DNA from: a virus
Reading direction: 5' to 3' (one strand)
Length of the DNA: 36,388 bases
IMG/VR virus record: IMGVR_UViG_3300036823_000093
Coordinates: 1 to 36,388 of that record
The position numbers and the translations under genes were made by a program. The notes under the pieces were generated by a model. It was not told the origin of the DNA, made no database searches, and saw nothing but the letters and a program-made list of their open reading frames with translations. Positions 4,178 through 36,388 of this stretch are shown here, in pieces. Position 1 is the stretch's first letter; every line of letters begins with the position of its first letter.

Positions 4178-4485
4178 CATCTACATAGAATAATTCTAAA
4201 AGGATTTATTATGCCATCTTTAGTTGGTTTGAAAAATATCTTCATATTTTTCTTAGTGAAGCTAAAGAAGGATTTTTCTTAAATATTGAAAAAAATAATA
4301 GTTGTTGGAATTGGAAAGGTAATATTGAAGAAGGTAAATTGATTTGTCATACTTGTGATAATCCTTCTTGTGTAAATCCTGATCATCTTTATCAAGGGAC
4401 TTTAAAAGATAATCATCAAGACATGGTAAAACGAGGTAGATTTAAACCTCGAGGTAAAATACAACCCCTAAAATGTTGTAAATGA
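4178..4485 (+). pseudogene. Degenerate HNH homing endonuclease fragment
   Basis: The open frame has no usable ATG. It encodes 'NSCWNWKGNIEEGKLICHTCDNPSCVNPDHLYQGTLKDNHQDMVKRGR' (shown here as separate known pieces of the family: the CWxWxG motif, CHxCDN, CVNPDH, and the LxxGTxxDN tail). Intact relatives have about 25 residues, including an AHR motif, between the WKG and GKLICH parts. Those are missing here, so the nuclease fold is incomplete. The fragment lies in a different frame from the fibre gene that follows and ends directly before that gene's in-frame sequence resumes at 4484. It looks like the remnant of a homing element that landed in the 5' end of the fibre gene. Confidence 0.7.
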
Positions 4486-4516
4486 GGTAATTATTTCTGG
4501 ATTTGACAACGATATA

Positions 4517-6136
4517 ATGTACGCGAAGAACGCTGATTTCACTAAAGCTGATAATCAGGCAGTATCTGAAAATAACGGTTTGATTACTGATGGTCAACTG
4601 TGGATTGGAAGAACTTCCGTTAATGCGGGGGGTACTCACATAGACGTAAATACTCTTACTGCTGGTTCAGGAATAAATATTGTAAATGGCGCTGGCTCAG
4701 TTACTATTGAAACAAGTGGTGTGGCAATCACTACTATTGATGGAGACACTGGGAGTATAGCGGGTTCGGTAGTGACAATTGAGACTGGAGTATCGACAAA
4801 TAACTCTGGTTCTACAATCGAATTTAATAATTCTGGAACTACATCTGTGTTGAATTTGACTAATAAAACCAATCACAGCACTTGTTTGGGTCAATTATCT
4901 GGAAATTCAGCTATGGCTGGAAGCAATAACACAGCGTTAGGATACTCCACATTTTCAAATGATCTTACTGGGAACAACTCGGTCGCTATCGGAGCCTCAT
5001 GTTTATCTAACAGCAATGGTTCTCAAAATAATATTGGAATCGGGGTATCGGTTTTACCTAATGTAACAGGGTCTAACTGCGTCGGAATTGGATTTAACTC
5101 AATGTTAAACGCTGTAAATTCTTCCAACTGCGTCGCAATTGGTTCTCAGACACTAGGAGATGTTTCCCCAACAAGCTGTATTGCTATCGGTTTTGACTCG
5201 ATGATAAACGCTTCGGGTAGTATCAATAATGTGGGTATAGGTGAAAGTACACTTTCTAATTCAAGCGGATCTAATAACGTCGCTATCGGTTTTAACAGCA
5301 TGTTAAATTCTGCTACCTCATTACAAAACGTTGCAATTGGATCTCAGACGCTTAGAGATCCAACAGCTTCGAGCAACGTAGCTATAGGTTATAACTGTAT
5401 GTTTGACGCTGTTGGTAGCATCAACAATGTTGGTATAGGTCAACTAGCCTTGGCTAATAGCACCGGTAACGCAAATGTGGCTCTAGGATTAGGTGTAATG
5501 CAAAGCGCTACTAGTGCTTCATTTAATATAGCATTGGGTTTCAATTCTCAATTTAGCAATTTGTCTGGGAACGATAACATCGCAATCGGAAGCCAAGCAT
5601 TAAACAATGCCACAGCTCCAACACTAAACACTGTTTTGGGATTTCAATCGGGTGGTAATTATAGCTCCACAGAATCCAGCAATATTATTTTAGGTGCTTC
5701 AGTAACTGGAACCACTGGAGAATCAAATGTTGTGAGAATTGGAAATCAAGGTTCCGGATCTAGCCAACAAAATACTTGTTTCATTGCGGGTATTACAGGC
5801 GCCACTGTCACAGGAACAGCGGTTCTTTGTGCAACTAATGGTCAATTGGGCACTGTTGTTTCATCCGAGAGATATAAAGAAAATATATTTGATATAAAAG
5901 ACGATATTTCAGTCTTAAATTTAAGACCTGTCGAATTTAATTACAAAAAAGATCAATCTAAATCAAGATGTTACGGTTTGATTGCTGAAGAAGTTGATTC
6001 AGATTTTAAGTATCTTTGTTTTTACAATGATCAAGGAAAACCTGAAAGCGTCAAATATCACGAACTGCCTGTTTTTCTTCTAAAAGAAATTCAACGTTTA
6101 AATGCTAGAATAGAAAAATTGGAAGGTAAATCATAA
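4517..6136 (+). CDS. Tail fibre/tailspike with YadA-like repeats and S74 intramolecular chaperone
   Basis: The 539-aa reading frame begins MYAKNADF. Residues about 125-420 are many copies of a 13-16 residue motif of the form 'SNNVAIGxxxL', the left-handed beta-roll of trimeric YadA/Hia-type head domains. The C-terminus (about 450-539) is a peptidase S74 intramolecular chaperone, with 'SSERYKENIFDI', 'LRPVEFNYK' and 'GLIAEEVD', followed by a short coiled coil. In this family the chaperone trimerises the fibre and then cleaves itself off just before the conserved Ser. The true N-terminus may be lost or separate: in-frame sequence is open from 4484, and an ATG with a good ribosome site (4211, MPSLV) lies in the same frame but is cut off by the HNH remnant. 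Confidence 0.85.
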   Translation: MYAKNADFTKADNQAVSENNGLITDGQLWIGRTSVNAGGTHIDVNTLTAGSGINIVNGAGSVTIETSGVAITTIDGDTGSIAGSVVTIETGVSTNNSGSTIEFNNSGTTSVLNLTNKTNHSTCLGQLSGNSAMAGSNNTALGYSTFSNDLTGNNSVAIGASCLSNSNGSQNNIGIGVSVLPNVTGSNCVGIGFNSMLNAVNSSNCVAIGSQTLGDVSPTSCIAIGFDSMINASGSINNVGIGESTLSNSSGSNNVAIGFNSMLNSATSLQNVAIGSQTLRDPTASSNVAIGYNCMFDAVGSINNVGIGQLALANSTGNANVALGLGVMQSATSASFNIALGFNSQFSNLSGNDNIAIGSQALNNATAPTLNTVLGFQSGGNYSSTESSNIILGASVTGTTGESNVVRIGNQGSGSSQQNTCFIAGITGATVTGTAVLCATNGQLGTVVSSERYKENIFDIKDDISVLNLRPVEFNYKKDQSKSRCYGLIAEEVDSDFKYLCFYNDQGKPESVKYHELPVFLLKEIQRLNARIEKLEGKS

Positions 6137-22477: not shown

Positions 22478-22966
22478 TTAAGATGAATTGCGCGATTTTT
22501 CTAAAGCTTCTAAGGCTTCCTCTTGAGTGTCAAACTCTCCAACGAGAATCATTTTATAATCTTTCATATATCTTGCACGCCATTTTCCAGACTCTTTTCT
22601 ATATGAAGCGCCTTTGTTTTCTCCTCTTGATCTTACTAGTCTTTCCTTTGAAATCATATCTTGATTATTTTCTTTCGGGGTACCAAGGAAAAGATGTTGA
22701 GGGTTTACACACCAAGCATTATCGCAATGATGACAAACAAACTTCTCCTCTGAGATTTCACCATGATAAAGATAATAAGCTATCCGATGAGCTCTATAAT
22801 CTTTTTGTTTCAAAATATAGTGACCATATCCGCTTTCAAAAAGACATCCATTCCATCGCCAACAATGTCCTTGCCATTTTTTTGCATGTCTTATTATTTT
22901 CGAGGTTTTATCTATCGAAGTTTTTTGCCAGAATTTTGCTATATCTAAAGGTTTCATTTTTATCAT
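22478..22966 (-). CDS. HNH homing endonuclease with AP2-like domain, antisense
   Basis: The 162-aa product starts at [14 protein letters not shown]. It has '[16 protein letters not shown]', '[14 protein letters not shown]', and the HNH core '[27 protein letters not shown]' in pieces (about 60-100). The C-terminal part '[17 protein letters not shown]...[18 protein letters not shown]' matches the AP2-like DNA-binding domain found in phage homing nucleases. Intact, with all motifs, on the strand opposite the late genes, and filling most of the terminase-portal gap. An in-frame GTG at 22999 is an alternative start. It is a free-standing mobile endonuclease. Confidence 0.88.
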
Positions 22967-23017
22967 GGACAAATTATAAACAAAACCATCATTTATCACA
23001 ACAGGATTGTTTAAGAT

Positions 23018-27529: not shown

Positions 27530-27876
27530 ATGACCGTTTCTATTTCAACAATGCCTTCACAGATTCAGCAAAGGTATAATCAAAAGCTTATCTCAACACC
27601 TGAGAAGAACCTGATTTATAACCTATTTGCCACACCTGTAGAGCTACCAGATAATATGGGCTTTATCGATAGACAAAGCCGTTATGACAGACTAGATCTG
27701 TTCCCTGTGCCTCTAGATGATGCACAAACTAACCCACCAGCACAACAGCTGAATAGGGTCGATGTGGATAAAATAGGCAGTCCACATATTAGTAATGAAC
27801 TCTTACTTTGTGCCGCGTAAGAGTATATAGCACCTATATCGTATTAACGAGACAGGTGACCATTACTAACGAGGAT
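27530..27876 (+). CDS. Major capsid protein, exon 1 (interrupted by about 44 extra bases)
   Basis: MTVSISTMPSQIQQRYNQKLISTPEKNLIYNLFATPVELPDNMGFIDRQSRYDRLDLFPVPLDDAQTNPPAQQLNRVDVD, written here only for recognition of its parts, is the N-terminus of an N4-gp56-type coat protein (about 80 residues). The frame then runs to TAA at 27818. The expected continuation 'YSTYIVLTRQVTITNED' lies in another frame at 27826-27876. About 44 bases in between do not fit the family. Exon 1 ends at T27876, the U of a U-G pair in intron helix P1. GAGGA precedes the ATG. Confidence 0.8.
27776..27819 (+). other. Frame-disrupting insert in the capsid gene
   Basis: Boundaries are approximate. Removing 44 bases here (or 41 or 47) joins VDVDKI to RVYSTYIVL in frame. 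The insert contains TTAGTAATG (27789-27797), the exact reverse complement of CATTACTAA (27861-27869) next to the intron splice site, and a small hairpin AGTAA/TTACT (27791-27807). No standard -1 slippery heptamer is visible. It may be a translational bypass element, a scar of homing, or an inactivating mutation. Confidence 0.5.
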
Positions 27877-28617
27877 AAAATTGTGTCCTCGATAAACCTA
27901 AGATGATTGACTTGGAAGCCCTCGCAGTTCAACTGGAGGGTGACAAGGGGCAAGTGAATATAAGGTTTTAACTGGATGATCGCGAAATCGGGAATTAATA
28001 GATCGAAGCTCAAGGTAACATTGATATCTAATATCATGGATTTCTTGAGAAATTTCTTTCTTTTGAAGCCTACGATGCTTTGTGAATGTGCTTCTCATTC
28101 GTATCATGATTTCACAGTGTCTTTTTTTAACAATGAGAAAAGGATAAATTTTTGGAATAAGATCATCGAGAGTCTCACCACTAATTTGAGAGTTGTAAAT
28201 CGTTCTTTCTTTCTTAGAAACTCTGGTTTTTCTCTCTTGTTGATTATTTGTTGCGTGAGCATTTTCTTTAATCCAATCCATCAAATCCTTATCGGTGTTA
28301 GAAATTTTAATGTAGGTGTGATAGTTGAGGAGATTTTTAGTGGCTTTTGTTCGAAAAAGTCCAATAAAAAAACAGCCTTCGCCGTCAATAATTCCTGCGA
28401 GATAAGCCAGTTCAGTATCAGTCATATAACTCCTTTAGTTGAGTACTATGCAGTATACAATAAATACAATATATTTGTACAGCCTGAACGACTAAGTTCT
28501 TGGGATATCAGCAATGATATATGCGATAGTCTGAACTCCACGTATAAAAAAAGGTGGAGAGGAGAATCCGAAGAGGTTTTCCCGCTTGCAAATGCAAGTC
28601 ATAAAAGTAACAGATTG
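27877..28617 (+). other. Group I intron in the major capsid gene
   Basis: P1 is CGAGGAU/GUCCUCG (27870-27876 with 27885-27891), with the U-G pair at the 5' splice site. P7 is GACUA (28490-28494) with UAGUC (28527-28531). P8 is ATATCA/TGATAT (28505-28520) with a GCAA loop. P9 is CTCCAC/GTGGAG (28536-28559). The last intron base is G28617. Joining 27876 to 28618 gives 'TITNED-PVLNSAA', as expected for the capsid family. Length 741 nt. The endonuclease gene inside is antisense. Confidence 0.88.
27898..28425 (-). CDS. LAGLIDADG homing endonuclease, antisense within the intron
   Basis: The 175-aa protein has one motif 'LAGIIDGEG' (residues 9-17), so it should act as a homodimer. The remaining fold has 'YHTYIKISNTDKDLMDWIKENA' and 'YPFLIVKKRHCEIMIRMRS', typical of single-motif group I intron nucleases. 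AAGGAG precedes its ATG by five bases. Encoded on the strand opposite to the intron, it must be expressed from a leftward transcript, which is uncommon. It would cut intron-less capsid alleles to spread the intron. Confidence 0.92.
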   Translation of the reverse strand: MTDTELAYLAGIIDGEGCFFIGLFRTKATKNLLNYHTYIKISNTDKDLMDWIKENAHATNNQQERKTRVSKKERTIYNSQISGETLDDLIPKIYPFLIVKKRHCEIMIRMRSTFTKHRRLQKKEISQEIHDIRYQCYLELRSINSRFRDHPVKTLYSLAPCHPPVELRGLPSQSS

Positions 28618-29265
28618 CCAGTTTTGAATAGCGCAGCAGCACGTTTGGGTCAATCCGGACGTGAAACTCAAGACGTCTTGCAGCGCGATAACCTCGAAAG
28701 TACGGCGAGTATAATCAACTGTGTAAACGGATCTAATGGCGATTTGCCTTGTGAGATGACTGGAGACGATGTTTCAGATGTCGTAACCCTTCTACAAAAC
28801 AATTCAGGGGAATATATTACAAATATGATTCCTGGTCAGTTGAAGATCGGAACATCACCAATTGGTGATTCATACGGTTGTATGAGTCCGACTCAGATGA
28901 TTCCAACATTTAACGGCATGACTGGTTTTACCCGTAAATTTGCTTACCCTAATGTGTCAGAGACACTTAGTGTCGAATGGGGGGGCATCAACAATACGAG
29001 ATTTTTCGTGTCGGATCAAGGAAGTATTACTCCAGGGGCATCTCTTGCAGGTAATGACGTAGCCAATAACTTCGTTGTCGCAAAAGAGGCCTATAAGGTT
29101 GTTTGGCAAGCTGGTGGAAAGATGAAGTTCATTTATCTACCTCCAGGATATAACAACGACCCTGGAATGCTCAGACATACGGCGGCTATAACTTTCTATC
29201 AAGGTCAGTGTATCACCCAAGACCTTTGGATCATGAATTTACGCGCAACCATGTTTAAATCATAA
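28618..29265 (+). CDS. Major capsid protein, exon 2
   Basis: Begins in phase with 'PVLNSAAARLGQSGRETQDVL' and continues 'RDNLESTASIINCVNGSNGDLPCEMTGDDV', 'LNVSETLSVEWGGINNTRFFVSD', 'GNDVANNFVVAKEAYKVV' and 'TQDLWIMNLRATMFKS', all features of N4-gp56-family coat proteins. With exon 1 and without the insert the protein would be about 316 aa. The open frame from 27976 to 28617 upstream of this point is intron, not capsid. Forms the icosahedral shell with the scaffold's help. Confidence 0.88.
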   Translation, partial: PVLNSAAARLGQSGRETQDVLQRDNLESTASIINCVNGSNGDLPCEMTGDDVSDVVTLLQNNSGEYITNMIPGQLKIGTSPIGDSYGCMSPTQMIPTFNGMTGFTRKFAYPNVSETLSVEWGGINNTRFFVSDQGSITPGASLAGNDVANNFVVAKEAYKVVWQAGGKMKFIYLPPGYNNDPGMLRHTAAITFYQGQCITQDLWIMNLRATMFKS

Positions 29266-36043: not shown

Positions 36044-36388
36044 ATGGCATTATTAGACACTATTGTTGCACCCAGGGGTTCAGGTGGCGGACATGAACAA
36101 TTAGCGACAAAAACGCCTCAACAGCAAAAATTACTGAATCAAAATATCCAACAAGCTCAAGACTTGCAACAAGGTGGATACAAAGATGCGATTGGACTAT
36201 TGCAGCAATACTTAGACCCTAACTCAGACGTTTACAAAAACTTTGAAAAACCCTACATGCAAGAATTTGAACAGCAAACATTGCCGGGGATAGCCAATCG
36301 GTATGCTGGCGCCAATGCTATGGGAAGTGGTCCAATGACATCAGGTTTTGGTCAATCTTTAGGAGCTGCGGGAGCTAACCTACAAACT
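36044..36388 (+). CDS. Ejection-type virion protein, 5' part (continues at 1-403)
   Basis: Starts MALLDTIVAPRGSGGGHEQLATKTPQQQKLL with AGGTGA about 5 bases upstream. Gln-rich helix ('QQAQDLQQGGYKDAIGLLQQYLDPNSDVYKNFEKPY') and 'QQTLPGIANRYAGANAMGSG'. The last 73 bases repeat bases 1-73, so the gene continues into the window start. One base differs (C at 36333, T at 18), giving Pro or Leu. Confidence 0.75.
   Translation, partial: MALLDTIVAPRGSGGGHEQLATKTPQQQKLLNQNIQQAQDLQQGGYKDAIGLLQQYLDPNSDVYKNFEKPYMQEFEQQTLPGIANRYAGANAMGSGPMTSGFGQSLGAAGANLQT
36316..36388 (+). repeat. Terminal overlap with bases 1-73
   Basis: The last 73 bases match the first 73 with a single difference (36333 C against 18 T). 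The overlap falls inside a coding frame that continues across, which indicates a circular or permuted genome rather than a phage end repeat. Confidence 0.95.

Follow-up and report, generated by a model that had tools for sequence, protein, structure and literature searches.

A 41-nt insert in a phage major capsid gene carries group I splice-site pairings without a catalytic core and may be excised by a neighbouring intron

The window analysed here is the whole of the IMG/VR virus record IMGVR_UViG_3300036823_000093 (36,388 nt), from a soil phage. Its major capsid protein gene, a full-length homologue of which (locus L001) matches phrog_1357, major head protein, is interrupted twice, i.e. by a 41-nt insert and by a 741-nt intron (hereafter intron 2) located 66 nt further downstream (Table 1). 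Exon 1 is in frame from the ATG at 27530 to VDVD, the last GAT codon of which ends at 27769, and the capsid sequence (CRVRVYSTYIVLTRQVTITNED) is picked up again in a different frame at the TGC at 27811; the insert between VDVD and CRVRVY is thus exactly 41 nt long (27770-27810). When the frame of exon 1 is continued past VDVD, KIGSPHISNELLLCAA is read, followed by a TAA stop (27818-27820). The first-pass annotation of this DNA had described extra bases that break the capsid frame just before the intron and a run of unrelated codons ending in the TAA at 27818, both of which are borne out. Among the sizes that it proposed for the insert (41, 44 or 47 bases, about 44), only 41 is exact, and the capsid sequence, which it correctly expected to return in another frame, does so from 27811 onwards (27826 in that annotation).

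Scans of viral contigs and one bacterial genome scan yielded 110 distinct capsid loci with placeable exons, designated below by L numbers. In 86 of these loci, both the insert and intron 2 are absent, and alignment to related capsid genes, which had been proposed as a check, shows VDVD continuous with CRVRVY where nothing is inserted. An insert at the identical site (D^C) was identified in 21 loci, namely the window and 20 others, with lengths of 38, 39, 41, 42, 47, 48 or 59 nt. Despite these seven different lengths, taking out the insert restores the conserved VDVD-CRVRVY in all carriers. One carrier, L118, comes from a bacterial (Acidobacteria) assembly and not from IMG/VR. A defective genome, a pseudogene or an assembly error would account for the broken reading frame of an essential gene, and the first-pass annotation had listed a defective genome among its options. 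However, related inserts occupy the same site in 20 further loci, L118 included, which excludes an assembly error, and the insert is conserved in 21 distinct loci together with its pairings and with a selected tail (see below); explanations of this kind are left with next to no probability.

The boundaries of the insert carry pairings typical of group I splice sites. The last six bases of exon 1 are complementary to a six-base stretch within the insert, giving a P1 helix (6/6 pairs in 21/21 loci), and the pair at the cut site is U.G in all 21, as in the P1 of group I introns. The two strands covary: exon GTGGAT is accompanied by insert GTCCAC, and exon GTCGAT by insert GTCGAC (L031, L036, L037, L038, and L187), a switch between carriers from G-C to C-G. 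The bases just 5' of the P1 guide pair with the start of exon 2 to form P10, for which the exon/insert combinations TGCC/GGCA, TGCA/TGCA (L031 and L044), TGTAG/CTACA (L188), and TGCAGG/CCTGTG (L199) were observed. Over 19 distinct sequences, 86 of the 95 possible P10 pairs are formed, compared with 24-41 in slid registers; shuffling of the exons among sequences gave p=0.00025, an approximate value, as the test preserves composition but not relatedness. The last nucleotide of the insert is G in 21/21 loci, preceded by U in 20/21, and intron 2 ends likewise. The codon before the insert is GAT in all 20 carriers counted, whereas it is GAT in 51 of 88 insert-free loci and GAC in the other 37 (p=1e-4). 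RNA folding predicted the P1 hairpin in 20 of the 21 inserts and a second small hairpin in most of them.

The insert therefore has an exon-terminal U paired with G in P1, a terminal G, and an internal guide for both P1 and P10, all of which are group I features, but it lacks the catalytic core (P3-P8) with the G-binding site in P7. A P3-P9 core is absent from all inserts and could not fit into 38-59 nt. The insert appears to work like a group I splice-site module and was not filed as a group I intron because this defining core is missing; self-splicing without it is not expected. Removal of the insert from the RNA is very likely, in agreement with the second RNA processing event that the first-pass annotation had offered as one option, and is supported by the covariation of P1 and P10, the exon U and terminal G at the boundaries, and a strict linkage to a group I intron (see below).

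The same annotation had likened the insert to a translational bypass element of the T4 gene 60 type. In T4 gene 60 and the mitochondrial byp elements, the frame is broken by a short insert that has a hairpin and lies close to a gene for a homing nuclease, and the capsid insert is likewise short and frame-breaking, with an early hairpin and a homing endonuclease gene nearby. Under bypass, ribosomes would leave the message at GAT and resume beyond the insert, but the take-off GAT is never matched by the landing triplet before the point of resumption (TTG, ATG, AGG or GTG) in the 21 loci. Bypass neither predicts nor explains the covariation of P10 alongside that of P1, the terminal G or the link to intron 2, and we consider it very improbable.

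Intron 2 itself is, judged from its helices, a complete group I intron. In the shortest related intron (L023, 223 nt), P1 and P3-P9 are recognisable by eye, and RNAalifold recovered most of the core helices from eight cores, although P3 and P7 cannot be drawn together without a pseudoknot. The Rfam group I model gave no match to the insert or to intron 2, either by gathering score or with E-values up to 1, and a family-specific covariance model of the core was therefore built. In the 36-kb window this model matched only the two halves of intron 2 (E 5e-9 and 7e-9; next match, E 0.5), and it detected no other group I core there. All 21 carriers of the insert hold intron 2, at GAGGAT^CC. Among the 110 loci, insert and intron 2 occur together in 21, the insert alone in none, intron 2 alone in three, and neither in 86 (Fisher p=1e-19; because the carriers are kin, this and the shuffling p-values overstate independence). 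The insert was likewise not found in relatives that have introns elsewhere in the capsid gene but lack intron 2.

The core of intron 2 is the likely catalyst of the excision, and the insert is best explained as, and probably is, a guide-only mini-intron removed by the ribozyme of its neighbour. Such an element would have lost P3-P9 while keeping what is seen in the insert: P1 with the 5' exon, including U.G at the cleavage point, P10 with the 3' exon, and a G as its last base. Two transesterifications by the intron 2 core, acting within the same transcript or once released as a free intron, would cut it from the capsid pre-mRNA. It would thus be a parasite of a parasite, its own ribozyme having been lost and that of its neighbour being used. 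Before excision, ribosomes coming from exon 1 would enter the insert and terminate after two alanines, an ending similar to that of an SsrA tag; the truncated capsid product would presumably be destroyed, and exon 2 and intron 2 would remain free of ribosomes while translation stops in the insert. Full-length capsid protein would then be made only where intron 2 has folded and acted, and the insert may serve as a translational gate. The features of a trans-excision substrate, i.e. a nearby core together with P1 and P10 bounding the excised segment, are present in all 21 carriers.

Several observations weigh against this explanation. The recognition strands lie in the substrate here, but in the ribozyme in engineered trans-excision ribozymes, and no contact besides P1 and P10 that would recruit the intron 2 core to the insert was identified. 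P10 has exceptions (only three pairs in L020; no first pair in L189, L193, and L195), the insert of L186 ends in GG, and that of L023 lacks the Ala-Ala tail. A 6-bp P1, with G-U allowed, arises in ~10% of shuffled inserts, and the weight of the P1 case therefore rests on its covariation and its consistency in 21/21 loci. The kinship of the carriers and the proximity of the two elements also count here: only 66 nt separate the insert from intron 2, a distance that co-conversion during homing easily spans, and their co-transfer could therefore produce linkage without functional dependence. The insert would then still be of group I type but be spliced by a different core or factor (a protein, or a further group I ribozyme of phage or host origin), with intron 2 linked to it by hitch-hiking. 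The higher similarity among carriers in exon 2 (0.82) than in exon 1 (0.75) and the homing endonuclease open reading frame (ORF) that is usually present in intron 2 are consistent with such hitch-hiking. However, an insert without intron 2 was found in 0 of 110 loci, the window contains no second core, and intron 2 has lost its own readthrough tail exactly where the insert is present; we regard this alternative as unlikely.

Reading the frame of exon 1 into the insert leads to Ala-Ala immediately followed by a stop codon (AA-stop) in 20 of the 21 carriers, with the tails LLLCAA, LMLCAA, NYAIAA, YYALAA, CLLAA, WLLAA, NAA, EYAA, and LYAA. The stop is located in exon 2, out of frame, in inserts of the 38/41-nt class and inside the insert in the 39/42/47/48/59-nt class. 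Compensating indels preserve the tail frame in L187, and AA-stop is still kept in L199 and L200, although translation passes through the guide in a different frame there. Readthrough to AA-stop is also seen for most of the full introns that occupy about a dozen sites in these capsid genes (e.g. ETYDYALAA, DLELLAA, and GDRAQAQAA). For all capsid-gene introns, 61 of 85 distinct readthrough ends are AA-stop, compared with 6 of 320 control stops, which were taken from other frames or from positions further downstream. The tails thus share with SsrA-like degrons an Ala-Ala right before the stop, at a frequency above chance. The transfer-messenger RNA (tmRNA) in the L118 assembly encodes the tag ADNSEQEFLQAA, and the NYAIAA and YALAA tails resemble the E. 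coli SsrA tag. The likeness to tmRNA tagging lies in the C-terminal Ala-Ala; the difference is that here the tail is encoded in the intron and reached by in-frame readthrough. Degradation of the tagged capsid fragment seems reasonably probable.

Tails with this ending are not confined to the family. The introns of the mycobacteriophages BAKA (L205, JF937090) and LittleE (L206, JF937101), which are unrelated to those studied here and the splicing of which has been reported (PMC3706429), end in DDLAAAAA-stop and VATAAA-stop, respectively, suggesting that intron-encoded degrons may be wider than this phage family. The readthrough ends of the T4 nrdB and Lactococcus phage Tuc2009 introns are not AA-stop, and the tail is therefore not universal. 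AA-stop could also be a by-product of RNA structure or composition and not a selected degron: a core segment translated as LIDLE recurs in many full introns, which points to shared ancestry of their tails, and the mycobacteriophages are GC-rich, so alanine is common in these phages. This appears unlikely given the excess over control stops, the same end reached by differing sequences and frames in the inserts, and the frame kept through compensating indels in L187.

The readthrough end of intron 2 varies with the presence of the insert. It is AA-stop in none of the 21 loci with the insert and in all three without it (DLEALAA), as well as in the more distant insert-free loci L191 and L192, whereas carriers show NED-stop, NEDK-stop, SSINLR-stop, and similar ends. 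In L189, the insert is accompanied by an intron 2 of the type found in insert-free loci, which ends in DLEAL-stop instead of DLEALAA-stop, and this locus looks transitional. If ribosomes stop at the insert until intron 2 is gone, the tail of intron 2 would no longer be needed in carriers, and its loss is expected if transcripts that lack the insert but retain intron 2 are rare. These data suggest that the insert stays in the RNA until intron 2 has folded or been spliced, which fits removal by the intron 2 core. The full account, which combines a natural, non-autonomous, guide-only group I intron spliced by its neighbour, a translational gate formed by an SsrA-like tail, and readthrough degrons encoded broadly by phage introns, is in our view somewhat favoured.

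Loss of the catalytic core and its supply from elsewhere are known from group III and spliceosomal-type introns, which belong to the group II lineage and use lariat chemistry; the insert resembles them in the external core and differs in its group I splice-site grammar. In split (trans-splicing) organelle group I introns, the core is divided and splicing takes more than a single RNA segment, whereas the core of intron 2 is complete and the insert keeps both of its own splice sites. Dependence on the core of another intron, following loss of the own core, is the step invoked for the transition from group II to spliceosomal introns, and if our explanation is correct, a phage group I counterpart of ~40 nt, its splice sites defined by covariation, would open that transition to direct tests in a small system. 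SsrA-like tails encoded by introns, if real, would explain how introns are tolerated in highly expressed, assembly-prone capsid genes: with coupled transcription and translation, truncated capsid protein from unspliced message would be marked for destruction. In the open-access papers searched, neither a natural group I intron without a core nor an SsrA-like degron encoded by an intron was described. Known group I introns in structural genes of phages (e.g. those of the mycobacteriophage LittleE capsid and BAKA tail genes; PMC3706429) share with the insert the exon-terminal U, the intron-terminal G, guide pairing, and location in a capsid gene, to which the full intron next to the insert adds an antisense LAGLIDADG ORF; unlike them, the insert (38-59 nt) lacks the P3-P9 core and G-binding site and cannot be self-splicing. 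Engineered trans-excision ribozymes and spliceozymes demonstrate that group I cores can remove internal segments, the former using P1, P9.0, and P10 to excise up to 28 nt (PMC4094466). The removal of a short, P1/P10-defined segment by a group I core is common to both systems, but those, of which the open-access papers searched gave no natural example, are engineered and carry the guides in the ribozyme, whereas the insert is natural and carries them itself.

Table 1. Features of the interrupted major capsid gene in the window
Feature	Position	Strand	Basis
Capsid exon 1, ending ...LNRVDVD	27530..27769	+	tblastn against relatives
Mini-intron, 41 nt, guide-only insert	27770..27810	+	Exact exon-exon gap; 21 homologous inserts
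P1 5' strand in exon 1, GTGGAT, U at splice site	27764..27769	+	6/6 pairs with 27780-27785; covaries in relatives
P1 3' strand, internal guide GTCCAC	27780..27785	+	Pairing; predicted P1 hairpin
P10 guide strand GGCA	27776..27779	+	Pairs with 27811-27814; covaries
P10 partner TGCC, exon 2 start	27811..27814	+	Pairing with GGCA
Small hairpin AGTAA/TTACT, 3' half of mini-intron	27791..27807	+	RNA fold
Terminal G of mini-intron (omega-G position)	27810..27810	+	G in 21/21 inserts
Readthrough tail to TAA 27818-27820, SsrA-like C-terminus	27770..27820	+	AA-stop counts in inserts and readthrough ends
Capsid exon 2	27811..27876	+	tblastn
Intron 2, complete group I intron, 741 nt, proposed source of catalytic core	27877..28617	+	Core model matches both halves
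P1 of intron 2, CGAGGAT 27870-27876 / GTCCTCG 27885-27891	27870..27891	+	Sequence
3' half of intron 2 core: P7, P3 3' strand, P8	28461..28548	+	Core model
LAGLIDADG homing endonuclease ORF inside intron 2	27898..28425	-	Pfam LAGLIDADG_1 E 4.5e-6
Capsid exon 3, PVLNSAAARLG...	28618..29265	+	tblastn

No full-length ancestral intron at the exact D^C site was found among the relatives. Two candidates were rejected: the 261-nt insert of L045 and L051 resolves into a 59-nt mini-intron and a second, distinct intron beyond it, and in L014-L018 and L021 an intron of 763 nt is inserted a few codons downstream. No mini-introns were evident in other genes when part of the loci was scanned for gaps between high-scoring segment pairs, which gave a few weakly supported small gaps, and sequence-pattern matches without nearby capsid exons were treated as chance.

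About a dozen sites in the capsid genes of this phage family (L094, L103, L112, L031, L083, L036, L045, and L186) are occupied by group I introns. A single gene can hold four or more of them, many are only 204-260 nt long, and readthrough of most ends in AA-stop. In L112, an intron located later in exon 2 (4307-5440) carries a LAGLIDADG-like ORF on the sense strand, in contrast to the antisense ORF in intron 2, and its readthrough ends in NLLVA-stop. Introns of 38-59 nt escape current annotation, and here even the full intron 2 went undetected by Rfam. The reading frame of capsid exon 3 in the window stays open across most of intron 2 (27976-29265, plus strand), forming a 429-aa ORF antisense to the LAGLIDADG gene that would lead annotators to a wrong capsid start.

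The carrier L118 (CAJCHM010000019.1) lies on a contig of 40.7 kb that was binned as an Acidobacteria genome, which may hint at the host group. The ends of the window record (1-73 and 36316-36388) overlap by 73 bp with 98.6% identity (one mismatch), and the genome is therefore probably circular or terminally redundant and nearly complete. An HNH endonuclease gene (22478-22999, minus strand; Pfam HNH_3 E 3e-12, with an AP2-like domain) is located antisense between the terminase and portal genes.
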